Assembly: GCA_039545355.1 (NCBI GenBank)
Contig: BCJJ01000013.1
Span: forward strand, 853,980 to 917,979
Length of the DNA stretch: 64,000 bases
Direction of reading: 5' to 3'
Origin: Trichosporon coremiiforme
Lineage: Eukaryota; Basidiomycota; Tremellomycetes; Trichosporonales; Trichosporonaceae
Shown here: in pieces, positions 4,050-51,662 of the stretch
Numbering within the stretch: the stretch's first letter is position 1
How the letters are laid out: every line of letters begins with the position of its first letter
Position numbers and translations under genes: made by a program
Notes under the pieces: generated by a model
Seen by the model: only the letters and a program-made list of their open reading frames with translations
Told to the model about the DNA's origin: nothing
The model's database searches: none

Positions 4050-5986
4050 CTTGCTCGGTTGACCGCTATCGGCGTCGGTGACGGTGTTGATGTGGTGAGC
4101 TCAAGCACTGGGAGGGATGTGGGAATGAGTCGGGTGCCAACATCACCCACACCTCGCGAGTGACGTTCCACAAGACAAGCAAGCCGGAGTGGGAACAAGT
4201 GGGAAGGAGGTGGACGGAAACGTCGGAGCGGGCCAAAAGAGTTGCACTCGAAACATGACAGGCTCGGCTGGTACACTCTTGCAAGCGCAAGCATCACTCT
4301 GTGTCTTCCTAGACTCGATGCTCTCCCAGCTAGTGCGAGCGCAACCCAGCGGACCATCACAGACACGAGCGATGAGAACTGTCTCGGTTCCCGGTGAACC
4401 TTATGCGCAGGCTCTGTACCTTGTTGCGCTTGTTGTCAGTTTGCTGTCGGGCCCACTACTCCTATCTCTCCGTCCTTGCGAGTCCTGGTGAGGTCAGCCG
4501 ACGGTTGCGTCTCTTCTATGACGGACAAGCAAGCCGTGCCTGGGCGCGATGAAACGGCGCTGAAACTCGTGACTTGGGTGTTCCGCCCTAGCCTCGCTCA
4601 GGTGCCCCTGGGGTAACAGGGGGGGCTCGAGGACGGCACAGAATAAGCTGCGCTCAGCAAACCTTATTGTTGCGTATACTGAGTGCGAGAAGGACTGGGA
4701 TGGGAGAGAAAAGGCTGCAGGGCGTCATACAGTGCTCGTCGAAGATGACAGCCTTGGAAACAACGGGACCTGGGTATGGGACGGAGTCATGGGTTACAAT
4801 CTGCAGCGTCACAAGACTGACGCGGAGACAGGAGGCCGCGGCAACGAGGGCTGTCAGACTCCGGATTCTGGGGTCCGCACTCCGTTCATGATATTTATTG
4901 TTCACATCGCAGAGGCTAGCATGAATGTGAGCATGCAGGGGTGTTAGCCGTATCAGCTGGGCGGGGAGTGTCAGTCTGGAGACCGCTATGTCTCACCACT
5001 GAGAGGACGAGGGGCTCCCCCCTTCAGTGTACCAGTGTATTGAGCATGCCAGAGGCACCCGTCATGAGCGTCGTACGTCTTCAACTGCACCGAGCCGTGG
5101 GACACGAGTTATGTCTACCTTTCTGCCCTTTCAGGCCAATCCCTAATTGCACGCAATCTCTTCGACCCGGAATGCGATGCATGCGGGTCGTACGGGCACA
5201 GAGCCGCTTGCTGGAACAGGGACTGCCGAGCCGCTCAGCACCGGTATGAGCGGTAGGTACGAGTGTACAGTGGGGAGTCTGCCAATGATTTGCGTGTTAA
5301 AAGGGAGTACGCAGAAGGTACCAGCGGCTCGGCGGGGCTCACTCAGCGGCTTAGGTGTGGGTCGACGTCGTACGCAGCATTGCCTGTTCCGACCATGTTC
5401 CCGATGGGCGGGAATGGCTCGCGCAAGGGTAGGAGGCGCCCAAACATACAGCAAGGACTAGGGACTGGGTAGCCGAAGTCGCGGCCCCCTGTACATTACA
5501 GCGGCTGGCTGCGGGTGCACGCTGTGCCGACATTACGAGTCGCACTACGGCGAAACCGAATGGGATTTTCTTCGCAAGTCCACCGCACTGGCGGAGAATC
5601 TATCTTCTATTGCGGCGTTGTTAGGTCCCCGATCGTCGCGCTGGGCTATTCGCAGCGTGGAGGGAGCGGAGATCTCGCCAAACGGACAGTGACCGCAGAG
5701 AATGGGACCCCCGGCTGGCTGGTCTTGTACAAGCGTATACATACAAACAATCTAGACTTGAGCATCTACTTTCACTGTCAGTAGCCCAAAGCGGCCTGGC
5801 CCGTTAGCTTTCTGATCGACGCTGAAGCTGCCTCGTACCCACGGTTCCCACTCGCTCGTTTGCCATATTCCCGCTACCGCTACCCCTTCATGCTTCTGTC
5901 GCGACCAGAAACAGAAAAGGCAGCTTCGAAGAGAACGAGATGCGAGCTGCACCGCTAGCCTCCGCTCCCTTGACTCAACCCCCCGC
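4050..5986. other. Intergenic, no supported gene
   Basis: This 1.9 kb stretch lies upstream of paralogue A and downstream of CTF8, both on the minus strand. Short open frames are present on both strands, but none has a plausible domain, signal peptide or splice pattern. I see no tRNA or long repeat. The part near 4050 probably includes the promoter of paralogue A. Confidence 0.5.
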
Positions 5987-6906
5987 TCACTCCGGCAGCT
6001 CCGTAGCGGCGACCAGCGGTTCCGGTCTGTATTGTCAGCTGAGCGCGTCACCTGTTAACTCACCGTAAACTGAACACAATCTTCTTGCGGACAACAGCGA
6101 CGACCTCATAGTGTCTAGCCCTTTCCCTCGGCGGGCGATTAGCCCTCCTGCGCTTCCTCTCCCTCTCCCTCCTCTCCTCTTCCCTCTCCTGGCGCGCCTC
6201 CTCATCTTCGTCCTCATCGTCACTCCCCAGTCGGCGAGGGAAACCCCACGCATCCATACCTCGTACAGGCGAGCTGAGGTCGGACGAGTACTCGGGACCT
6301 TGGCTCGAGGGCGCTGGGGGAGATGACGGGGGCAGGTCCCGGAGACCACGTTTCGGCGTTTCCATTTCGGGGAACAGGGGCGGGTCGTCTTCCTCCTCCT
6401 CGGCAGGTGCGGAGGAGTGGAGTTTGGGCTTCTTGGGAGCGATCGGGGAGGAGGTGAGAGCCTCGTGCTCAGCCTCGCGCTCTGCATCACTCTCCTCGTC
6501 CGCTGCGTCGCCTTCAATGTTCGCCTCGGTCGAGACCGCGCGCCGGATCACAGCATACGGCCGCGGAAGCGTCGCCATCTTGCCGTGCAAGAGATGGTGC
6601 TGGCCTATGTGCAAGGTGGGGTGGTCCTGTCGTCAGCTCTAGCGCCTGGGGCCATAGCTTGGAATTCCAGATCTCAGACTTCGCCAAAATCTCAAGATCG
6701 ACTCTGCCGGGTGGAACAGAGGGGCGAGGAAGGCCACTCACAGGTCGGTCCAGACCAAGTACACCGATGACGCTGTTCGCCGTGTCGCCCTCGACCTCGA
6801 TCTTGCCCTGGAGCTCGATGAGGACGAGGTCGCCACCGATCTTAGCCAGTGGGCCGGTGGGGTTGGACGTGAAGTGTTTCGGTTCGAGCGGGAGATGGAT
6901 ACGCAT
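5987..6906 (-). CDS. CTF8: Ctf8, subunit of the Ctf18-RFC clamp loader
   Basis: Three exons: 6906-6742, 6626-6064 and 6026-5987, 255 residues. The first intron joins GVLGLDRP to DHPTLHIGQHHLLHGK, reproducing the conserved Ctf8 core in which a GxLG segment is followed by the LxIGxHxLxGK motif and a PxAV strand. The last intron adds a short exon ending RPEPLV and a stop, which matches the RKK...RPxP C-terminus of the family. Ctf8 works with Dcc1 and Ctf18 to load PCNA and promote sister-chromatid cohesion in the nucleus. Between the core and the C-terminus there is a long acidic and Arg-rich insertion (about residues 85-235), which is probably disordered and makes the protein longer than the yeast one. 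Intron branch sites read GCTGAC in both cases. The gene lies between two paralogous membrane-protein genes on the same strand. Confidence 0.88.
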
Positions 6907-14792: not shown

Positions 14793-14899
14793 GGTCGCGT
14801 GGCCCAATGGCAAGGCGTCTGACTACGACCTCCGACTCCGAGCTCAGCTCGGGGACGCGAGTAATCAGGAGATTGCGGGTTCGATCCCCGTCGTGACCT
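14793..14899 (+). tRNA. tRNA-Arg(ACG) with 35-nt intron
   Basis: Acceptor GGTCGCG/CGTGACC, D arm GCCCAATGGCAAGGC, anticodon stem TCTGA/TCAGG with loop CTACGA before the intron (anticodon ACG), T arm GCGGG-TTCGATC-CCCGT. The 3' end is followed by a T run. Confidence 0.88.
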
Positions 14900-15334
14900 T
14901 TTGCGTGTGCGCGAGAGCGTGCAAAGCTTTTGGCTACGACTTGGCAGAGTTGAACAATCGAAGATAGGGCGGAGAAAGGTGTAAGAGGTACAGGTGTGAA
15001 TGCCACTTGGCCGTGGTGGAGGTGGAGAGGCATCTCTACCACCAAGATTTTTGACCCGCATGCCTCGACGGGCGACAGGCGTCTGCACAACTCAGGACAG
15101 ACGACCAGGGCCCTAAGCGTTGCCTGTTGCCGGAAGTGGAGCCTCCACGACTTCCCCTCGTCTACCATCGTTCCTCACTACCACTCCCTTGTCCACGCTC
15201 CACTTCCGCCATTAACTCTCGCTCTTGACATAGTATTGTTCTGAGCTGACTGCAGACGTACATAAGTAGCCTGCACGTGGCTCTCGCACCGCCGCCGGCG
15301 CCGGCGTCTGGCGCCCTCCGACGGCGTTCACATC

Positions 15335-15439
15335 GGTCGCGTGGCCCAATGGCAAGGCGTCTGACTACGACTCAGCATCGAGATCATCTCGGGGCAGGAG
15401 TACATCAGGAGATTGCGGGTTCGATCCCCGTCGTGACCT
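15335..15439 (+). tRNA. tRNA-Arg(ACG) with 33-nt intron
   Basis: Same mature sequence as the copy at 14793; intron of 33 nt after position 37. Confidence 0.88.
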
Positions 15440-15941
15440 TTTGCATGTCTACGGACGTACTGTGAAGCTTTTGGGGCTGGTCTGGGATGAAGAAGCGTTG
15501 GTGGAATGGGTGGGGAGGGCTGGGGGTGTGAGGTGCCACATTCAGATCGGCCGTGATCTGGGTGGGACTGGAGGGCGCAGTCGGTACGTCTGCGAGTACT
15601 TAGGCTTTCCTTGTGTCCATGGCCAGCCTCCGCTTCCCAATCTTTACGACGTCGTACGGGCCACTTCGGTTGAACATTCTTCAACATGGTGATGCGCGGC
15701 AGAGAAGACAAGGACTGACCGCCAACCGTATCTTGTTCACTCCCTCCCACGCATCTCTTCCAAAATAGCGGCTTCCTTACAGGTTCAGTATTCTGCGAGG
15801 ATCTCGACCTCTCCCACTCCCTTTGACGCGGTCAAACAGATGGCCTCAGCAGGAGAGCGTCGGAGGGGGTGGATCAAGGCATTTTCGATAGAATTACGGT
15901 GCGGGCGCTCATAACCGAGCATGGTTGAACAGTTTTCAACA

Positions 15942-16024
15942 GGTCGCGTGGCCCAATGGCAAGGCGTCTGACTACGATTTGCTAGTTTATCAGGAGATTG
16001 CGGGTTCGATCCCCGTCGTGACCT
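15942..16024 (+). tRNA. tRNA-Arg(ACG) with 11-nt intron
   Basis: Same mature sequence as the other tRNA-Arg copies, with the shortest intron of the set (11 nt). Confidence 0.88.
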
Positions 16025-31553: not shown

Positions 31554-31637
31554 AGGTCACGACGGGGATCGAACCCGCAATCTCCTGATGAACGAAGGAA
31601 ATCGTAGTCAGACGCCTTGCCATTGGGCCACGCGACC
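31554..31637 (-). tRNA. tRNA-Arg(ACG) with 12-nt intron
   Basis: Minus-strand copy with the common mature sequence; 12-nt intron. Confidence 0.88.
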
Positions 31638-32058
31638 GATGGTGATGACGCCGAAGGGCATAACGGGGCGGGCTCGGCGCCGGGGCGCGGGCACGCGGGC
31701 TCTATGAGGGGCGGCCACTGGTGGGGTCTGTGTCTGCGGTGAGTGTTGACCCTGTGGACCGCGAAGGGGACCGAGATGAGTGTCATCTGAGTCGACCGGA
31801 AGGACGGAGAAGGATCACCACTGGAGCTGGCGGATGGGCAAGACGGAGCCTTCCACGCCTGACGCAACGACGCCCAACGCACCCGCGCCCTAGTGCTTCC
31901 CCGGAAGCAGATTACGCTAAGGGTCTACACAGATCGCACACTATCTCCCGCAAAGATGCAAGTGGCACCCGACAACCACCTCACTCCATCTATCAATCTC
32001 CCCTCCCTCTCCGTCTTCCAGGCGTCCAAAAGCTCAGAACGTCTCCAGACACTCCAAA

Positions 32059-32166
32059 AGGTCACGACGGGGATCGAACCCGCAATCTCCTGATTACTCC
32101 TGGCCCCGCAAAGAACTGCGGAGTGAGAGATCGTAGTCAGACGCCTTGCCATTGGGCCACGCGACC
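32059..32166 (-). tRNA. tRNA-Arg(ACG) with 36-nt intron
   Basis: Common mature sequence; 36-nt intron, the longest of the set. Confidence 0.88.
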
Positions 32167-32572
32167 GATGGTGACAGCCCCGATGGGGTGGAGGCGGCGG
32201 GGTCGGGGCCGGTGCGAGCGGGGGTGCGATCATGAGACATCCCGGGTGACTGAGCCTTCCACTGAGGTTTGTCGTGTGCAGAGAAGTTGGAGCGGAAGGT
32301 GTGGGATTGTCCGAGGTCGAGGTGTAAAAGGTTACGAGCAGAAGCTTGTCGGGATACGCGTTGAACACTGAGGCGCTGAACCCGGATATAGATGAAGGCA
32401 TAGCCGGAACCAAGCGCCCTCACGGCGACGCAGACCACCGTACTTGGCCGTCTGGAACCACCATCCCCGGCCTTGTGGCACATGTCCAAACACCCCATCT
32501 TCCTCGTCCGCACGCTTCTAACCTCCATCTCACTAACTCCCAAAAGCTTCAGCACGTCCGCAGACAGCCAAA

Positions 32573-32677
32573 AGGTCACGACGGGGATCGAACCCGCAAT
32601 CTCCTGATTACTGTGGGCCCCGGGATGAGCTCGAGACGGAGTCGTAGTCAGACGCCTTGCCATTGGGCCACGCGACC
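32573..32677 (-). tRNA. tRNA-Arg(ACG) with 33-nt intron
   Basis: Common mature sequence; 33-nt intron unlike those of the other 33-nt copies. Confidence 0.88.
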
Positions 32678-32993
32678 GATGGGGGAGGGCCGTGTACCCA
32701 GAGCCACGCCGACGGCGCCGCCGGTGCGAAACCCTTCCGCTGGCGGCCTACCCACAGCCATAGGATGGGATGGAGCCAAAGACGACGGAGTGAAGCGATC
32801 GTCTCTTCCTTCGCCGTCATGACCAGGAGCGTCTCCCCCAGGTCACTCTTCCACTCCGATGTTTTGTCCCCCCATCGCACGCACAGGACCCCGCCCGACC
32901 CTGTGGCAATCTACCTGCCCTTTCTCCATGCTCTGAAACGGCATCCCGGCGCAACCGGACGCGTGTGGACGCCGCAGGAGGTGGATGTGCTCC

Positions 32994-33079
32994 TTCCTGT
33001 TCGTATAACGGCTAGTATGCTCGCTTGTCATTACGTAACTTGACCGCGGGAGATCGGAGTTCGATTCTCCGACAGGAAG
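32994..33079 (+). tRNA. tRNA-Asp(GTC), copy 2, variant acceptor stem
   Basis: Same as the copy at 14154 including the 14-nt intron, but the acceptor is TTCCTGT/ACAGGAA. One C-G pair has become T-A, with both sides changed. Confidence 0.88.
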
Positions 33080-33464
33080 CACAAGCAGCGCTTCAGAGCT
33101 CTGTCTTTTGGTGTTTTACCGGGCTGAAGGTGACGGAGGGGGAATGGAGCCAATGAGCGAAGCTGGGCACGAAGTTGACCCCCTGTCCCGCGCCGATGGC
33201 TCGTCTGATCTCCGCGAACACGATCCGGCGTATGAGCGTCTTCTACATGCACCGCAGCCATAAAAGGGTACTCTCGGATGCTCCGAGCGTGCTGAAGGAA
33301 TCGGAAACCAACTGACCGGGGAAAAGGGAGAAAATTCAGGACGGCGCCACCCTCACCTGCTGATCACTCAACATCACCGTTTCACTCTTCCCTCCCCTCA
33401 CGAGTCTTCCAACTGCCCCTTCTTCCTCTCCGACACCACTGGAGCAGCCTGTGCACGTTCAAAA

Positions 33465-33569
33465 AGGTCACGACGGGGATCGAACCCGCAATCTCCTGAT
33501 GTACCGCAGCTCCGAGATGACCTCGGTGCTCAGTCGTAGTCAGACGCCTTGCCATTGGGCCACGCGACC
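33465..33569 (-). tRNA. tRNA-Arg(ACG) with 33-nt intron, twin copy 1
   Basis: Common mature sequence. The whole 105-bp gene, intron included, is identical to the copy at 35023-35127. Confidence 0.88.
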
Positions 33570-33951
33570 AATGAGGGAGTACCGGAAGGACAAGGCCACG
33601 CCGGCGGCGGCGCTAGTGCGAGCCGCCCACGGGGTGTGGGTGGTGGACCAGGCACCAATGGCAGCAAACGGCGCAGCTGTGACGGTTACGTACAAGTGGA
33701 AGGCATTCACCGGAATCTCGCATGTCGACTGCACGACGCCCGAAACAATGATCGTCACTGTTCTCAGCGTGTCTGTCACTGTGCTCGCAGCAAGGGCACA
33801 CCCATCGCCCGTCGATCACACACTAGCGCGCTGTGGCACTGAGGCGCTCACATCAGCACTCACCATTTCCGCCAACTTCTCACGACGCCGTGAACTCGCT
33901 CCCGGGGCTCTTCGGGGCACCGAACACGATGCTGACGTGAAGAACACGCGT

Positions 33952-34050
33952 GCATCAATGGTGTAGTCGCTATCATACTTCCTTCGGGTTCTTAAGATCC
34001 GGATGAATCATCCTTGGAAGTGGTCCCGGGTTCAAATCCCGGTTGGTGCC
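33952..34050 (+). tRNA. tRNA-Pro(CGG) with 26-nt intron
   Basis: Acceptor GCATCAA/TTGGTGC with one T-G wobble, discriminator C as usual for eukaryotic tRNA-Pro. Anticodon stem CTTCC/GGAAG and loop TTCGGG before the intron give anticodon CGG. T arm CCGGG-TTCAAAT-CCCGG. A TCTTTT run follows. Confidence 0.78.
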
Positions 34051-34532
34051 TCTTTTGCTGTCCAGGAGGGCAAAATACGGTGCGGTAACAGCGTTCAGTG
34101 CTGCTGGGAGTTGTGAGAGTCAGCTGGAGATAGCTGGGCACATCAGAATGAACCTTGAGGGGAGAGCGAGAGAATGGCCGGCGAGTGCGCGAGCTAGCGC
34201 GTCCGGGGTGTCTGTATCAGGATTAAGCTTCATTCATGCTGTACTTTACGTGTGAGAGGGTAGCAGGGTGTCTCACCCTTCGTATTGAACAATGTGAACG
34301 GTGGCATATGGTCAGCGATCGCCTTCGGCGTATGACCGCTTGTTTCTGTACCTGTAATGGTGGGCGGAGGCTCTGCTCGAACATACTAGAGGCCAGTGCC
34401 CCGCTCTGGACAGTTAGGGGCATACTGCACTCAGCATTAGCCTTTCCGTCCTCTCCTTCCCCACGCTGCGGCCAGACTCCGGCATCGGCGCCGCCGAACG
34501 CGAGCCCGAATCACGGACTACCGTCGTGCCTC

Positions 34533-34612
34533 TTCCCGTTCGTATAACGGCTAGTATGCTCGCTTGTCATGACAGACCGCGGGAGATCGGAGTTCGATTC
34601 TCCGACGGGAAG
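34533..34612 (+). tRNA. tRNA-Asp(GTC) with 8-nt intron, copy 3
   Basis: Mature sequence as in the copy at 14154, but the intron is shortened to 8 nt. Confidence 0.88.
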
Positions 34613-35022
34613 GACGAGGACGCAGAAAAGCGTCATCTTTTGGCTTTTCTGGGAGCCGGAACGCAGCAGAGTCAGTCGTGCTGACGGGCGTGGTGGAGGC
34701 TGGGATGGCGTCGGTGGAGGCTGCGAGATGTTTAGGGAGTGCGCTTGCTCCAAAGATAGGACCACAGCTGATAATTGCGAGACAAGCGGTCCTGCAGCTA
34801 ATCATGCTGATATAGGCTCCTAATTCTGGCCGCAGACGGCTTTCAAGAGGCGGTAGACGGCACCACGGGCTTGTGCTGAAAACCGGTAAAAATTCTCCTT
34901 GGTGCCACACTCACGCCTAGCCCCTTCCTACGCCCTCCGCTTCGCTTCTCCACTCCCCACGCCCTCTCCAACTCGTCTTCCACGCTCCAGAACACCCCCC
35001 GAGCATGCATACACCTCCAAAA

Positions 35023-35127
35023 AGGTCACGACGGGGATCGAACCCGCAATCTCCTGATGTACCGCAGCTCCGAGATGACCTCGGTGCTCAGTCGTAGTCA
35101 GACGCCTTGCCATTGGGCCACGCGACC
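35023..35127 (-). tRNA. tRNA-Arg(ACG) with 33-nt intron, twin copy 2
   Basis: Identical to 33465-33569 across the entire gene including the intron. Confidence 0.88.
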
Positions 35128-35408
35128 TGTGTTGGGATCAGAGACGAATGTTGCCCTATCGACGATGTCAACAGTGGCTCGTCTATGATGCGATTGAAAA
35201 GTGAACTAGAGATGAAGATTCATACACGCTCTGCAGCGTCTTCTTATATCTACATGTAGTTCGAGAACAATAGGCGGTGCACAGGCCACCTGGGAAGCGC
35301 CGAGAGCGTTGAGGACGGCGCTGAATAAGCGCCGAGTGACGAGAACAAAAGAGAGCGTCGCCGAGCGGTGCCGAGCGGTGCTCTATTGTCAGCACCGAGG
35401 CCATCGGG

Positions 35409-37417
35409 TTATAAGCGTGGTTTCCACGTGTATCCCAACAGACCTGTTGATAAATGTCGGGCGCAGCCTGGCCAGATCGGGTCGCCGGGGAATGGAGTGT
35501 GAGACCCGCTTTCGTTTCTACCGTCAAATGTCCCCCTGTCTGTTAGCTCTTGAGCGATGGAACTACAGCACACCTTGCGATCCTACTCCCTTTCAAATGG
35601 TAGCCCATTGTCTTCGGATCGCGGGACTGGGTTCAGCTGGGATAACGCCATCACAGCTTACATCGTGCAGCATGGACTGGCCGCTTCTCGGGCGAGGGCG
35701 GTGGCGAGGACAACACATAAGGTCTGTCTGTAAGCTTGAGCACTGCCACTATTCAGCTCACATAGACAACTCTTCCCATAGCTCGTCTGGTCGTCTGAGC
35801 CGGACTGGAGGCCGATGCACGCACCACGCGGAGATGCGACGGCTAGCACTCCTGCATGGAGCTCTGACTGTCAGCTTCTTCCAGGGGCGGAGTTCAACGT
35901 ACCTCTGCCCGCCGCTCGTTGAGTGAGCATATAGGAGACCTGCTAGTCAGCACAAGAACAACCGCTCAGTCAGCCGACCTCGAATCTTCGCGTTCGACTC
36001 TGGTTGAGACAGCCGTTCTCTGGCGGTTAGCTCGCTGCACCAATTCGCAAAGTTACACACACGATGGTGTCTTCCATTACATACCCAATGAGGTTTGGAT
36101 ATTAGCTCAAGGCAAAGCGTTTCTAGCTCGCTGTCAACTGACCGCTTATAGAAGTGGGACCTCGTCGGAAAGTGCTGTGATGCCCAAAGAGGCTGCTCGT
36201 CAGCTTAACCGAATGCAAAGAGACCCCAGCTCACCTTTCGTATGTGGCCCGTTTCACCTCCATTCCGCAGATTGACTGCTGTTAGCTACCATTTATGCGT
36301 GGAACCGAGCCCTCACGTGTTGCTCCTGCTCATCAGTTCAACTGGCGGAGACTCATGTTGACCATCTACTGGTCAGCTCGCCCGAGTCTCCAGTAGCTAA
36401 CCCACCTCCTCCCCGCGAAGCAAGTGTACCGCTGTCGTCAGCTTTGGTCGTAGCCACCATACCTACCGTCTTCATCATCATTCCAGTTCAAAGGGTCGTC
36501 GCAAGACTGCCCGCCTGTTGTGCTGTCACACTGTGAACTGCTGACTGAGAGTCAGGCGCAGTCCAGTGGCCTGGTAGCTCACCTGCCTCAGCACCTCGGC
36601 CGCGTAACCACCAAGCTCCGAGTCTGGTGTCAGCTACAGGTGACGCGCCTCCAGCTGCCGCCATCAACCTGGCTCCCACCACCTACCCTTTCGCAGGGGG
36701 ACATCGCGGAAGGTACTCGAGTCACGCGCAAAGCCAGCTCCGCCCTTACGTCAGCTCTGGGTACAGGCGCCGTGAGCTCACGAATATCGAGGCTGTGGGC
36801 TGTACAATGGGACGAGCCGAGAGCTGGTGTCAGCTACTAGACGGAGCCGCCAGCTAAAGTTGTTTGATCGTGCGCGACAGCGCTTGCATACCGTACACCT
36901 CTTCGCGCGGGAGAGGGCCGGATGATGAAGGAGGCGCTGGGTATCTGCCCTGTTATCATCCGGGAAGCAGCATTCTCACGCAGCATACTGACCGGAGCGT
37001 GATGCAACTGACCAACGATGTATGTTTGAGTGCTGGCATTAGCTATGCTCCAGAAGACATCGCAGCCTGGAGGCCACTTCTCTGGTTGCACGTACGACGA
37101 GCGTATGCTTGGTGCAGATCCACGTGGTCGGCCTGATGGAGTCTGTGGATCAGCTGCAGTGAAGCGTGGACAGCAGCTGGCGGTGATATGATGAACGTAA
37201 CCTCGGGCACTACTGTCAGCTAAGCGCCCACGGTTTGTAGCTACCTGGCTCGTCGCCACATACGGGTTGGTTGACAGTGCTAGATGCTGGAAAGTTCAGA
37301 GGAAGGAAGGCAGTCAGCGAGTTGACGTGTCAGCGTTTTAGCATCGATGACCGTAGCGGCATCAGAGTCGTTGCGCCCCATTGGGACAAGGATGTATCCA
37401 GAAACCCTTCGTTGCAT
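35409..37417 (-). CDS. Cryptic gene of about 21 micro-exons, unknown protein
   Basis: My splice model on the minus strand is 37417-37327, 37286-37245, 37209-37202, 37142-37096, 37032-36993, 36949-36899, 36823-36782, 36744-36687, 36623-36583, 36530-36463, 36431-36406, 36368-36317, 36275-36258, 36192-36161, 36122-36085, 36019-35979, 35939-35903, 35867-35825, 35742-35662, 35626-35587 and 35535-35409. It gives 340 residues with no internal stop. Exons are 8-127 nt, introns 31-82 nt. The firm evidence is a series of about sixteen branch sites (AGCTGAC, GCTAAC, AGCTGAA), each followed within about 15 nt by an AG, all on this strand. The protein is Ser/Pro/Arg-rich and probably disordered, with phrases such as DDPLNWNDDEDG and VLSSPPPSPEKRP; I recognise no domain. 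Exons 5-12 are best supported. The first exon (donor GTCAAC), the exon at 35867-35825 and the 3' end are weaker. It lies 115 bp downstream of the amine oxidase stop. Confidence 0.6.
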
Positions 37418-37531
37418 GTTCGTAGTTACAAACTAAACTTCTGTTCTCTTACACTGGCTCTAAGCGCCTTTTCGCCTTGCTTCGCCTCGCTTCGCCTCTT
37501 GATTACAAGATCGCCGACTGGTCCGCTCCAC

Positions 37532-39694
37532 TTAAAGCTTGCAGCAAGCCTTGTCCTTGCCCTCGTTGACGGGGGCGTTGTCCTCGATCTCCTCGCTGGC
37601 GACCTTGAACAGGGTGCTCTGGTTGAACGCCTGCGTGGAAGGGGGCACGTCGATGGCGGGGCTGCGGTGGAAGAAGTCGAACGGCTTGAGCGAGACCATG
37701 TGCGTCTCGACCGGCATGACGGGGTAGTCCTCGACACGGGGGTTGTGCGTGAGGCCGAGGGTGTGCCAGACGACAATGTCCTCGTTGTCCGTCTTGTCGC
37801 CGCGGCCAACAAAGGTGCGCATGCCCTTGGCGTTGCCGTACGACTGGTTCGTGTACTTGCCCGCGGCGTAGTACTCGCCGTCCTGGTACTTGGTGACGTA
37901 GACGTGGTGCTCGCCAAACTCGGCGCGCGCGTACTGCACACTGTCGGGGTGGGCGAGCATGAGCTGGCTCGCGGCGGGGACGAGCTTGTAGCCGACCGGC
38001 TTGCCCGAGACAGGGTTCTTGACGTTGGGGTTCACGATCTTGAACACGCGGTTCTTGTGCGGCGCGGCGTCGGCACCGCCAGAGCGCGTGATGGGCGTCT
38101 TCTCGACAGTGTAGCCGACACCCCACTTGTTGTTCTCGGGCGGGTTCTTGGCGTCGAACGGCATCGGGACCGAGTCCTCCTGAACGACCGTGTTGTTGTG
38201 GCCGTCAATGGCCGGGTCAATACGGATCGAGAACAGGTGCTGGTGGTTGGTGCCGAGGACACCGCGGGAGACGACGTTGCCGTAGGGCGAGAGCTCGCCG
38301 GGGAGGATGGCGGCGGTCGAGAGGATACCGGTGGCGCGGATCTCGAGGTGGATGGCGGCGGCCTGGTCGAAGCGCCAGTTGAAGATGTACTCGTAGTTGG
38401 CGACGGTGAGGATCGTCTGCAGGATGAGGACACGAGAGCGCGTGACGGCGGGGCGGCCGGTGCGGTAGTTGGTGTGCTTCCATCCGATACCGTCGTCCTG
38501 CTCGTGGATGCAGACAACGCCCTGCAGCGTCGCGGGGTCGCCCTTGACGTCGAGGTGGTCAAAGTCGAGGTAGTGGATCTCGCCCAGGCAGTCGCATCCG
38601 AGCTTGAGCTCGTTGGCGGTAAGACCCGCACCGACGTCTCCGAGGTCGAACGCCTGCTTGCGGTGGAAGGGGGCACGGGGGTCGCCGTAGGGAACAGTCA
38701 TGTCCGAGACGGAGAGACGGTGGAAGGTCTTGCGGCCGTCGTAGCGGATGTCGGAAAGAACGAGACCCTCGCGGTAGTTGAAGCCGATGTGCATGCTCCA
38801 CTTCTGCCAGCGGAGGACACGGCCCTCGAGCGAGAACGAGGCACCCTCGGGCTGGATGACGCGGTAGGGGCGCAGGTCCTGGCGGAGCTGCGTGCCAGAC
38901 TCGACGAGGAGCTCGGGGTCGTACTCGTTGCTCTCGTACAGGTGCCAGGGGAACGGCTCCTTGAGGTCGAGGAAGGTCTTCTCGCCGGTACCGAAGATGG
39001 GGGTCCAGTCGATGCGGACGAGGGAGAAGTCGTCCGAGCTCATGACGGGGACGAGGGGAAGGGGGGCAGAGTAGTGGCACGAGTCGGGGTTACCGTTCGT
39101 GTTGGCGTAGACCATGAAGGGGGTGTAGCGGTTCTTGCGCTCAAAGTCGTCGGCGCCGTAGATCCATCCGTCGGCGACAACCTTCCAGTGCTTCGGGAGG
39201 CCGAGCTTCTCAATGGCGGCAAGGAACTCGGGGTGCTTCAGGAGAGCCTCCTCGGCGGCGAGCATCTCGGCCATGTCGGGGGGAACGTGGAGGTCGGTGG
39301 GGCACTGGACAGCGCGCTCGACCTTGGCCTCGCCGTCGAGCGAGACGTAGAACTCGAACCACGACGTCGAGTCCGGGCGCTTGACACCGGCAAGACACTC
39401 GGCGCGCCTCGGAAGGCGCTGGACGGGAAGGCCCTGGTGCCATCGGTCGAGCCAGGGGGCAAGGACAGCCTTCGGCGGGTCGATGAGCTGGATGCTCTTG
39501 AACCAGAAACGGTGCTCGCCCTTCTCCTGGGCGTCGACAAACTGCTTGATAGCGTGGGTAGCGGCGCGGACTTCATCCCTCGACAGCGGGTCGAGGGGGT
39601 GGTAGCCCTGGGTGGAGCGCGCGGCCTGGGGGCCGCCGGCTCCGCTGATCGACAGTCCGGCCGTCGCGGCGGACAGAGAGGCGCTCTTCGACAT
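37532..39694 (-). CDS. Peroxisomal copper amine oxidase
   Basis: A single exon of 720 residues from ATG 39694. It oxidatively deaminates primary amines to aldehyde, ammonia and hydrogen peroxide. The catalytic domain has the TPQ cofactor motif T-x-x-N-Y-E-Y with the modified tyrosine at about residue 434. The catalytic base is probably Asp350 in AFDLGD, and the three copper ligands are His484 and His486 (NHQH) and His650 (GLTHNP). The length fits fungal copper amine oxidases. The protein ends in Cys-Lys-Leu, which fits the PTS1 rule and suggests peroxisomal import, as for yeast amine oxidases used in nitrogen assimilation. The unusual pair of Cys just before the end is worth noting. The next gene on this strand is the micro-exon gene; upstream is a Zn2Cys6 regulator, but a regulatory link is only conjecture. 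Confidence 0.95.
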   Translation of the reverse strand: MSKSASLSAATAGLSISGAGGPQAARSTQGYHPLDPLSRDEVRAATHAIKQFVDAQEKGEHRFWFKSIQLIDPPKAVLAPWLDRWHQGLPVQRLPRRAECLAGVKRPDSTSWFEFYVSLDGEAKVERAVQCPTDLHVPPDMAEMLAAEEALLKHPEFLAAIEKLGLPKHWKVVADGWIYGADDFERKNRYTPFMVYANTNGNPDSCHYSAPLPLVPVMSSDDFSLVRIDWTPIFGTGEKTFLDLKEPFPWHLYESNEYDPELLVESGTQLRQDLRPYRVIQPEGASFSLEGRVLRWQKWSMHIGFNYREGLVLSDIRYDGRKTFHRLSVSDMTVPYGDPRAPFHRKQAFDLGDVGAGLTANELKLGCDCLGEIHYLDFDHLDVKGDPATLQGVVCIHEQDDGIGWKHTNYRTGRPAVTRSRVLILQTILTVANYEYIFNWRFDQAAAIHLEIRATGILSTAAILPGELSPYGNVVSRGVLGTNHQHLFSIRIDPAIDGHNNTVVQEDSVPMPFDAKNPPENNKWGVGYTVEKTPITRSGGADAAPHKNRVFKIVNPNVKNPVSGKPVGYKLVPAASQLMLAHPDSVQYARAEFGEHHVYVTKYQDGEYYAAGKYTNQSYGNAKGMRTFVGRGDKTDNEDIVVWHTLGLTHNPRVEDYPVMPVETHMVSLKPFDFFHRSPAIDVPPSTQAFNQSTLFKVASEEIEDNAPVNEGKDKACCKL

Positions 39695-44356: not shown

Positions 44357-44440
44357 GGTCGCGTGGCCCAATGGCAAGGCGTCTGACTACGATTTTCGGA
44401 GTTTATCAGGAGATTGCGGGTTCGATCCCCGTCGTGACCT
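44357..44440 (+). tRNA. tRNA-Arg(ACG) with 12-nt intron
   Basis: Common mature sequence; 12-nt intron different from the 12-nt intron at 31554. Confidence 0.88.
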
Positions 44441-44784
44441 TTTTGCGCTGTTTTTGGCTTCGAGCGCGTCCAATTTCAAGGTGGTGAGAAATTTGGAAAC
44501 GGGAGAACGACTCAGAACGGTGAGCGTCGTGGATTCCCTATATTATCAGCAGTGTGATAAGCGTCGGAGGCATTTTAGCTCCACGCTACGCCCTTATCTG
44601 CAACCCGATCTCAATCCGCCCGATCACTCATCAGTATCACTCCTGCCCTTACTTCATCTGGTATCTGCATCGTCAAGCGCTTCCTTCTGCTATGCTCACA
44701 GCAGGTCTCCCCTTCGATGGCTGCCAAGTGCGCTCGCACCCGGGCGGGCGGTGGCGTGTCCCACCGCTGTGCACAGTTTTCATC
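44441..44784. other. Spacer between tRNA-Arg genes
   Basis: No gene seen. Confidence 0.5.
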
Positions 44785-44891
44785 GGTCGCGTGGCCCAAT
44801 GGCAAGGCGTCTGACTACGACTCGATACTTGAGATCGTCACGGGTATTCAAGTATATCAGGAGATTGCGGGTTCGATCCCCGTCGTGACCT
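44785..44891 (+). tRNA. tRNA-Arg(ACG) with 35-nt intron
   Basis: Common mature sequence; 35-nt intron. It is the last of the ten tRNA-Arg(ACG) genes in the window. Confidence 0.88.
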
Positions 44892-50307: not shown

Positions 50308-51662
50308 ATGGGCGAGCCTCTCGTTTTCAAGGGATCCCTTGCCGGCCACGCCGGCTGGGTTACTGCCATCGCTACCTCCAGCGAGAACCCCGACATGATC
50401 CTCACCGCTTCGCGTGGTACGTAGATGAAAAACGGCGTCGGAAAACTCGCAGAGCGAATTTTTCGAGCGGTGAAGGAACGACCCGCTGACATCTCCCAGA
50501 CAAGACCATCATCGTCTGGCAGCTCACCCGCGACGAGTCTTCTTTCGGTTTCCCCAAGAAGATCCTCCACGGCCACAACCACTTCGTCTCTGACGTCGTC
50601 ATCTCGTCGGACGGCCAGTTCGCCCTCTCGTCCTCGTGGGACAAGACCCTCCGTCTCTGGGACCTGAACACCGGCCTTACCACCCGCAAGTTCGTCGGCC
50701 ACACCGGTGACGTCCTCTCGTGAGTATCTTCTGCTGGAATGGACAGGCTCCGCGGGCTAGGCGGCGAGCTGCATGGGATTCTGAACCCCTTTGGTGGACT
50801 TGAAGCAAAATTCTGCGCTGCTCTGCTGCCATTGGCTCTCCGCACCTGGCCAGCAGTTTCGTCGAAATCTGCGAGCTTTCAGCTGACCAACAGGGTTTCG
50901 TTCTCCGCCGACAACCGTCAGATCGTCTCGGCCTCGCGTGACCGCACCATCAAGCTCTGGAACACCCTCGGCGAGTGCAAGTTCAACATCGTTGACGACG
51001 GCCACTCCGAGTGGGTCTCGTGCGTCCGCTTCTCGCCCAACCCCGTCATCCCCGTCATCGTTTCGGCCGGCTGGGACAAGGTCGTCAAGGTGAGTACCTG
51101 CAATGGTTGGGAAATGATGATTTGTAATATATTTGCTACTTCAGAGGGCTTGCCCGATGAGACAACACTATCCACCAAGATCTCTGATCCCCCATTGAAA
51201 CCAGCTTTTTCTTTCATGAGGAATGGCAGCTGACGGAAACAGGTCTGGGAGCTCTCCAAGTGCAAGCTTAAGACCAACCACTACGGCCACACCGGCTACA
51301 TCAACACCCTCGCCGTCTCCCCCGACGGATCCCTCGCCGCTTCCGGTGGCAAGGACGGCATTGTCATGCTCTGGGACCTCAACGAGGGCAAGCACCTCTA
51401 CTCCCTTGAGGCCGGTGACATCGTCAACTCGCTTGTCTTCTCGCCCAACCGCTACTGGCTCTGTGCCGCCACCGCCTCGTCGATCAAGATCTTCGACCTC
51501 GAGTCCAAGTCGATCGTCGACGACCTCAAGCCCGACTTCAACGAGCTCTCCGAGAAGGCCCGCAAGCCCGAGTGCGCTTCGCTCGCCTGGTCCGCCGACG
51601 GCCAGACCCTCTTCGGTGGTTACACCGACAACCTCATCCGCGTCTGGGCCGTTACCGTCTAA
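50308..51662 (+). CDS. RACK1: RACK1 (Asc1/Gib2-type) ribosomal WD40 protein
   Basis: Exons 50308-50416, 50500-50719, 50894-51089 and 51243-51662, 314 residues, the usual RACK1 length. Seven WD repeats are visible, with GH...WD spacing, starting [14 protein letters not shown] and ending [10 protein letters not shown]. Conserved RACK1 phrases include [26 protein letters not shown] and the SASGGKDG-like [17 protein letters not shown]1 binds the head of the 40S ribosome and scaffolds kinases and G-protein signals; the Cryptococcus orthologue Gib2 acts as a G-beta-like protein. The ATG context (AAAATGG) is good. Codons are strongly C-ending, as expected for a highly expressed gene. The third intron (51090-51242) contains a C/D snoRNA. 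Confidence 0.97.
51108..51192 (+). ncRNA. SNORD24: U24-type C/D box snoRNA in RACK1 intron 3
   Basis: Inside the 153-nt third intron of RACK1 there is a C box ATGATGA at 51114-51120 and a D box CTGA at 51184-51187, with GGGA and TCCC able to form the terminal stem. Two guide segments match U24 as I know it: ATATTTGCTA after the C box and CCACCAAGATC just before the D box. An internal CGATGAG resembles a C' box. In budding yeast U24 (snR24) lies in the intron of ASC1, the RACK1 gene, and guides 2'-O-methylation of 25S rRNA. The same host-guest pairing here supports the call. Confidence 0.85.

Follow-up and report, generated by a model that had tools for sequence, protein, structure and literature searches.

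What does a stretch of DNA produce when one of its strands is crowded with intron signals and the pieces between them yield no convincing protein? We asked this of positions 35409 to 37417 in a 64-kb window of the Trichosporon coremiiforme genome ("the window" is the whole 64-kb stretch that was analyzed, positions 853980 to 917979 of contig C13 in a 42-Mb genome of 134 contigs). The initial annotation had read the interval as a hidden minus-strand gene encoding a protein. Part of that proposal is upheld here: an intron-dense transcription unit is supported by the intron grammar, by strand asymmetry, and by conservation of splice signals in a second copy on contig C15, whereas a protein-coding role is not supported, given the lack of codon bias, the changes seen in the C15 copy, and the lack of a Pfam match for one spliced translation.

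We place the predicted spliced noncoding transcription unit, hereafter the micro-exon locus, at 35441 to 37430 on the minus strand, with uncertain ends, on the basis of a 16-intron parse and of homology along its length to C15 (L006, positions 4571 to 6455). The neighboring gene upstream, also on the minus strand, encodes a copper amine oxidase (37532 to 39694; Pfam PF01179, E = 1e-161). On the downstream side lies a 311-bp dispersed repeat (35130 to 35440, no strand assigned) that, judged by its ends and its copies, has the appearance of a solo LTR. It starts with TGTTGGGAT, ends with ATCCCAACA, bears a GACCTG duplication at both flanks, and has copies on C13 (715k) and C34 (65k) at 96 to 98% identity, along with a shorter 90% match on C53 (68k). 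The first bases of the interval as initially drawn, 35409 to 35440, fall inside this repeat and outside the locus. Two bases separate the repeat from a tRNA gene, at the 5' end of the latter. The window holds 11 Rfam tRNA matches in three clusters (14793 to 16024, 31554 to 35127, and 44357 to 44891), several of them close copies of one another, and 8 of the 11 measure 99 to 108 nt and so probably contain introns. ARAGORN, run in its bacterial setting, reported three tRNAs in the window, one of which (34532 to 34613) is absent from the Rfam list. A match to the SNORD24 family at 51109 to 51191 on the plus strand scored just above the gathering score (46.5 versus 41).

Much of the window has a reversed syntenic copy at positions 803000 to 882999 of C15, in blocks of ~72 to 90% identity, and in this comparison no match passing the cut covered the part of the window at ~16 to 31.5 kb. 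Such a copy suggests that the genome may be that of a hybrid or may carry an old duplicate.

The intron grammar of the micro-exon locus is pronounced and one-stranded. AGCT occurs 32 times in 35409 to 37417 and 335 times in the entire 64-kb window, a rate at which ~10.5 would be expected in the interval. The minus strand has eight AGCTGAC and the plus strand none, and the CTRAC counts are 16 and 6, respectively. The initial annotation was right about the AGCT excess and about the lack of AGCTGAC on the other strand. It went too far in assigning nearly every AGCT to AGCTGAC or GCTAAC, as the minus strand has 8 AGCTGAC and 3 AGCTAAC, or 11 of the 32. With a strict pattern (donor GTRNG, branch CTRAC, AG nearby, length of 30 to 75 nt), 12 introns were found on the minus strand of 35441 to 37420 and none on the plus strand. 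A set of 1,000 first-order Markov sequences gave a mean of 0.87 and a maximum of 5, and other 2-kb windows gave at most 4, so that the excess is real and confined to one strand.

A parse with weight matrices, trained on 196 seed introns from the DNA examined, gave 16 introns of 33 to 68 nt, from 37263 down to 35536, with a score of 236.9. Scores did not exceed 47.0 in first-order shuffles (n = 200), 56.2 in second-order shuffles (n = 200), or 107.9 in other windows of the same length (n = 268); the plus strand of the locus scored 27.6. Matrices built from 187 introns, leaving out both copies of the locus, returned 234.6. Interior exons in this parse are 30 to 141 nt long, with a median of 53 nt, and exons of 8, 18, and 26 nt, as initially claimed, do not appear in it. 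The introns have a median score of 21.7, compared with 17.2 for 35 introns with coding flanks, although the matrices were partly trained on array introns and the coding-flanked set is small and includes pairs from both copies as well as some dubious calls. On this sequence evidence, the micro-exon locus is predicted to carry spliceosomal introns, each with a donor, a branch site, and an acceptor. The same parse of the C15 copy gives a weaker result, with 12 introns and a score of 154; the three strict-pattern introns of that copy lie inside its own Markov range (mean of 0.87, maximum of 5).

The 16 predicted introns, all on the minus strand, are given here from 5' to 3' with their relation to the introns predicted on C15. 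Intron 1 (37210 to 37263; 54 nt, GTATGT..AGCTGACAGTAG, or 51 nt with the first AG; score 17.6) has no intron at the corresponding place in the C15 parse. In intron 2 (37033 to 37095; 63 nt; score 12.8), the donor GTACGT and the branch site both align with those of a C15 intron. The next three are unmatched on C15: intron 3 (36824 to 36891; 68 nt; alternative donor at 36896; score 22.1), intron 4 (36745 to 36781; 37 nt; score 25.5), and intron 5 (36624 to 36686; 63 nt; alternative donor at 36679; score 18.8). The branch site, but not the donor, aligns with that of a C15 intron in intron 6 (36545 to 36582; 38 nt; score 20.7) and intron 7 (36432 to 36466; 35 nt; score 20.5). Donor and branch site both align in intron 8 (36369 to 36401; 33 nt; alternative donor at 36405; score 22.0), intron 9 (36276 to 36316; 41 nt; score 17.5), which sits within the sole inner stretch of the locus detected by blastn (78%), intron 10 (36193 to 36234; 42 nt; score 27.6), and intron 11 (36020 to 36060; 41 nt; alternative donors at 36062 and 36084; score 21.3). 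Intron 12 (35940 to 35978; 39 nt; score 12.3) is weak and has no intron at its place in the C15 parse. Both signals align again in intron 13 (35864 to 35902; 39 nt, or 35 nt with the first AG; score 23.8) and intron 14 (35724 to 35761; 38 nt; score 22.1), and intron 15 (35627 to 35661; 35 nt; score 24.1) and intron 16 (35536 to 35573; 38 nt; score 24.1) are unmatched. For introns 1, 3, 5, 8, 11, and 13, the strict-pattern search adds to the weight-matrix parse. In all, 9 of the 16 have a C15 intron at the aligned branch site, 7 of these 9 also with an aligned GT donor, and the other 7 lack a predicted C15 partner.

Could the exons, once joined, encode a fast-evolving protein, as the initial annotation supposed? 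The 340 stop-free codons that it reported were not recovered: the longest open run after splicing of the best parse covers 129 of 341 codons, against a shuffle mean of 118. Tests that trade stops against splice-site quality did give a hint of an open frame, and this is the local evidence in favor of a coding gene. None of 40 shuffles was as good as the locus in the first soft-stop test, and over the 16-intron span a stop-trading dynamic program gave a cost of 20.3, compared with a mean of 52 for exon-shuffled controls, of which 8 of 480 were as low. A parse made to favor the frame over 35441 to 37429 nonetheless runs into stops, four of them with the penalty set to 10 and two with it set to 100, and it swaps the donor of intron 9 for a poor one, whereas the original donor aligns with the donor of a C15 intron. 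The hint was not upheld by codon usage or by the C15 comparison. Codon usage of the 15 interior exons is at background (z = 0.1, after training on 27 open reading frames from the region and the C15 copy). In this version the amine oxidase, used as a control, was part of the training set. A held-out version, for which both copies of that gene were removed to leave 25 frames, had the same outcome, with z = 0.14 for the micro-exon locus and 13.6 to 17.8 for amine oxidase sequence divided into pieces of matching length (10 trials). Neither one spliced translation nor either of two unspliced frames had a Pfam match above the cutoff, the best match below it being SapA (E = 0.5) for a plus-strand frame. 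Exon lengths leave remainders of 0, 1, and 2 upon division by three in 7, 3, and 5 of 15 cases, and so are not mostly multiples of three.

Comparison with C15 largely refutes the coding proposal. The amine oxidase is 93% identical to its counterpart on C15 and free of indels; its changes number 18 at the first codon position, 13 at the second, and 114 at the third. The micro-exon locus has diverged far more between the two contigs, yet it is homologous over its whole length, with an alignment score of 399 versus 9.6 ± 19 for 20 shuffles. Its exon mismatches are spread over spliced positions as 85, 90, and 88, with no codon periodicity and no third-position excess, and the 111 indels in exons include 27 whose length is a multiple of three. 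The micro-exon locus shows no conserved coding capacity. Taking the open run, the soft-stop shuffles, the per-exon codon usage, and the C15 comparison together, we rejected the protein-coding reading, which we hold to be very improbable.

What has been kept between the two syntenic copies is the splice signals. Identical bases make up 73% of all positions in splice signals, 58% in exons, and 54% in intron interiors, so that exons evolve like introns. When the signal labels were rolled along the locus, identity averaged 0.581 and reached at most 0.692, below the observed 0.733; starting from the introns predicted on C15, signal identity was 0.817, compared with 0.629 ± 0.039 for rolled placements, none of which reached 0.817. 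These values may be somewhat inflated, as the aligner may favor matches between AGCT motifs. Exon conservation in a sister sequence had been set beforehand as a check on the gene; with C15 as that sequence, the exons fail it and the splice signals prove to be the better-conserved part.

The same comparison bears on the possibility that this is a decayed multi-exon protein gene in which old splice sites are still visible. Some introns are missing or weak in the C15 copy, and the locus is sparser than the intron arrays described below, both of which would fit decay. Decay should, however, erode signals and exons alike, whereas here the signals are better conserved; codon usage, moreover, is at background and not just lowered. 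We regard this alternative as unlikely.

Our main reading, to which we assign a probability of about 65%, is that the micro-exon locus is a noncoding RNA gene of ~17 short exons split by ~16 mini-introns, a looser relative of intron arrays found elsewhere in the genome. From its sequence we infer that the locus is transcribed and spliced from the minus strand and that the property under selection is probably splicing itself.

Denser intron arrays do occur elsewhere, with examples on C1, C5, C8, and C11. The pattern AGCTGACNNCAG is found 4,315 times genome-wide and its reversed control 155 times, which marks it as the normal branch and acceptor signal of this genome. Three AGCTRAC motifs in a row, spaced 40 to 70 nt apart, occur 163 times genome-wide (control, 2), and AGCTGAC-only triplets at tighter spacing 37 times (control, 0). 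Among the matches listed, the first 100 of the 163 places, there are 41 loci, and 15 loci have at least 3 places listed. An AGCTRAC triplet is absent from the window as well as from the C15 strip and L006, and the micro-exon locus has one close pair. As self-comparison also gave no internal repeats (0 hits) in the locus, its kinship with the arrays is one of style; it is like them in coding status too, and it is the sparser form. The C15 copy likewise has no internal repeats.

Ten loci were taken for branch-site clusters (L026 to L028 and L059 to L065). Because they were selected by the branch-site motif, their intron density is partly a matter of choice; the coding tests do not depend on how the loci were picked. 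Clusters with 14 or more predicted introns were found in L026 (39), L059 (31), L060 (44), L061 (28), L062 (28), L063 (17), L064 (16), and L065 (14), with one cluster of 7 in L028 and none of 6 or more in L027. Extra clusters of 6 introns, 232 nt from the main one in L059, and of 9 introns, 182 nt from that in L060, bring these two to 37 and 53. Six arrays have 17 to 53 predicted introns, with many exons of 5 to 30 nt and no clear coding signal. Eight clusters pooled (the micro-exon locus, L026, L059 to L063, and L065; L064 was excluded) comprise 217 introns and 209 exons, the latter with a median of 28 nt and 45 of them no longer than 15 nt. The exon lengths of L059 leave remainders of 0, 1, and 2 in 3, 14, and 13 of 30 cases.

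Some of the loci found by the scan may nevertheless be coding, given the good results of L064, L065, and L061 in the stop-cost test: shuffles as good numbered 1, 2, and 4 of 40, respectively, next to 0 for the micro-exon locus and 6 to 36 for the other nine clusters. Codon z values across clusters range from −0.7 to 2.3, and the highest belongs to L064. This 16-intron cluster (C9, 938500 to 942000) is open in 219 of 249 spliced codons and is the only one of 13 clusters whose openness lies above all 200 shuffles; its codon bias is weak (z = 2.3), and it is possibly a coding member. Its openness is a further point in favor of the coding reading of the micro-exon locus.

Self-comparison revealed internal repeats ~250 nt apart in L026 (2 hits), ~170 nt apart in L059 (6 hits), and ~200 nt apart in L061 (7 hits), mostly at ~70% identity, as well as two hits in L064 and one in L065; none were seen in L060, L062, L063, or three shuffled controls. 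The tandem multi-exon repeats of L026, L059, and L061 indicate that tandem duplication, taking in several exon-intron units, enlarged some of the arrays. Genome searches with the whole of L060 and of L026 matched only themselves, which confines the conservation test to the micro-exon locus.

A second regularity concerns the sequence upstream of the branch site. Among 281 AGCTRAC sites followed by AG in the DNA examined, 170 have another AGCT 15 to 20 nt upstream. The share is 105 of 157 for array sites and 65 of 124 for the others, and at 5 to 13 nt there are only 4 and 4. In array introns, a further AGCT precedes that of the branch site in 160 of 217 cases, compared with 25 when the interior is shuffled. 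The spacing is mostly 15 to 20 nt whether the upstream AGCT lies inside the donor (GTGAGCT, in introns of ~37 nt) or deeper in the intron (L060 and L061, median of 47 nt). Counted over 190 kb, there is ~1 pair per spacing at 4 to 13 nt (8 at 3 nt), a peak of 49 at 18 nt, and 0 to 5 past 22 nt. Where the branch site contains AGCT, the pair is present in 7 of 14 introns of the micro-exon locus and in 6 of 18 coding-flanked introns. The paired AGCT signal is not special to arrays.

The tight spacing, mostly 15 to 20 nt between the two motifs, could also be taken to mean that the locus is an untranscribed array of DNA motifs, with AGCT paired about two helical turns apart and only a resemblance to introns. 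We find this hardly credible, since donor, branch site, and acceptor follow one another in order, on one strand and at intron-like lengths, and since the same pair occurs in the coding-flanked introns counted above.

How might the pair be read? Pairing of the two motifs as an AGCU-AGCU hairpin in the RNA has some support. The mean pairing probability is 0.67, versus 0.54 with the interior shuffled (115 introns), and in a small local set the wobble-compatible variants AGTT (13) and GGCT (11) outnumber the incompatible AACT (7) and AGCC (4). Genome-wide at this spacing, CAGCT occurs 1,781 times (control, 125) and TAGCT 575 times (control, 51) before AGCTGAC, and 722 (control, 34) and 316 (control, 28) times, respectively, before AGCTAAC; the shift in the C-to-T ratio (odds ratio of ~1.36) is in the direction that pairing predicts. 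C is nevertheless still preferred before AGCTAAC, and one-letter variants stay near their controls genome-wide, and the wobble-compatible CGGCT (131; control, 120) does not exceed the incompatible CAGCC (159; control, 113). As a G-U-compatible change is not tolerated, we rejected a simple hairpin as the main cause. The exact AGCT tetramer seems to be required, which suggests contact of the upstream AGCT by a protein or snRNA; this is our preferred reading, as it fits better than the hairpin.

These observations invite a broader proposal, which we put forward tentatively and consider rather doubtful as a whole. The arrays would form a class of genes not described before, whose product would be splicing itself or the introns that it removes; dozens of mini-introns would be separated by exons that are mere spacers, and some members would grow by tandem duplication. 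A two-part element (AGCT, 15 to 20 nt, AGCTRAC) would tighten recognition of the branch site enough for exons of 5 to 30 nt to be handled, and the micro-exon locus would be a sparse member. Since the element is found at about half of the non-array AGCTRAC sites examined, it may be a lineage-specific splicing signal, recognized by a protein or snRNA without a known role of this kind.

It has also to be asked whether the introns might be there in order to splice poorly. Stalled spliceosomes have been described as a signal for RNA interference in Cryptococcus, and a silencing or decoy locus could stall spliceosomes on poorly spliced introns, feed small RNAs, or sequester splicing factors. The tRNA genes and the LTR-like repeat that adjoin the micro-exon locus would suit such a role. 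The repeat, however, was looked for next to the C15 copy and not found there, and the introns score well (21.7 versus 17.2, with matrices partly trained on arrays), which suggests efficient splicing. We consider this explanation distinctly unlikely.

Several known systems resemble the noncoding, spliced unit that we favor. Schistosome micro-exon genes, which encode secreted proteins from exons that are mostly multiples of three, have in common with it runs of short exons and fast evolution, but the micro-exon locus and the arrays lack both the multiple-of-three bias and a coding signal. Introner-like elements of fungi likewise crowd many introns of similar size into one genome and are recognizable as copies of one another, whereas the array introns have mainly their signals and spacing in common, although L026, L059, and L061 hold internal repeats. 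We rejected the introner reading on the zero self hits of the micro-exon locus, L060, L062, and L063 and on the genome-wide searches in which L060 and L026 matched only themselves. A snoRNA host gene was also considered and rejected: no Rfam family was matched at gathering score in the micro-exon locus, its C15 copy, or the six arrays, and the introns of the locus are 33 to 68 nt long.

The closest parallels come from Cryptococcus neoformans. One report describes 1,197 miscRNAs in this basidiomycete yeast, 765 of them with spliced introns and 1,434 introns in total, and exons in the genome as short as 1 bp (Janbon et al. 2014, PMC3990503). Like our predicted unit, these transcripts can be spliced, have small introns, and show no obvious coding capacity; unlike it, they have just over one intron each, in contrast to the 16 predicted in the micro-exon locus and the 17 to 53 in the six arrays, which are known here from sequence. 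In further work on Cryptococcus, most of the genes tested accumulated far less RNA once their introns were removed, and the effect of introns is cumulative (Goebels et al. 2013, PMC3744415); introns probably promote export and avoidance of nuclear decay, with intronless versions being degraded (PMC5851062). In these sources, intron-dependent expression is demonstrated for mRNAs, and we extend it to a noncoding locus by inference and across genera. If the analogy holds, the survival of a long RNA without a reading frame would depend on a succession of introns, and holding RNA stability through splicing would place selection on the signals and not on the exons. Arrays could then expand through tandem duplication of exon-intron units. 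As for the spliced RNA, our guess is that it may act within the nucleus, or in cis beside its neighbors.

Our search of an open-access library turned up neither a report of noncoding loci with mini-introns arrayed by the dozen nor one of a paired AGCT intron signal. Gene finders that depend on coding potential are blind to such loci, and intron-dense noncoding genes may therefore be absent from fungal annotations. If these loci are spliced, they would serve as a natural experiment on how small exons can get and would separate the function of splicing from that of the spliced sequence. As an extra intron signal, the AGCT pair with its fixed spacing is a candidate that can be put to the test, and it could explain how tiny exons are handled.
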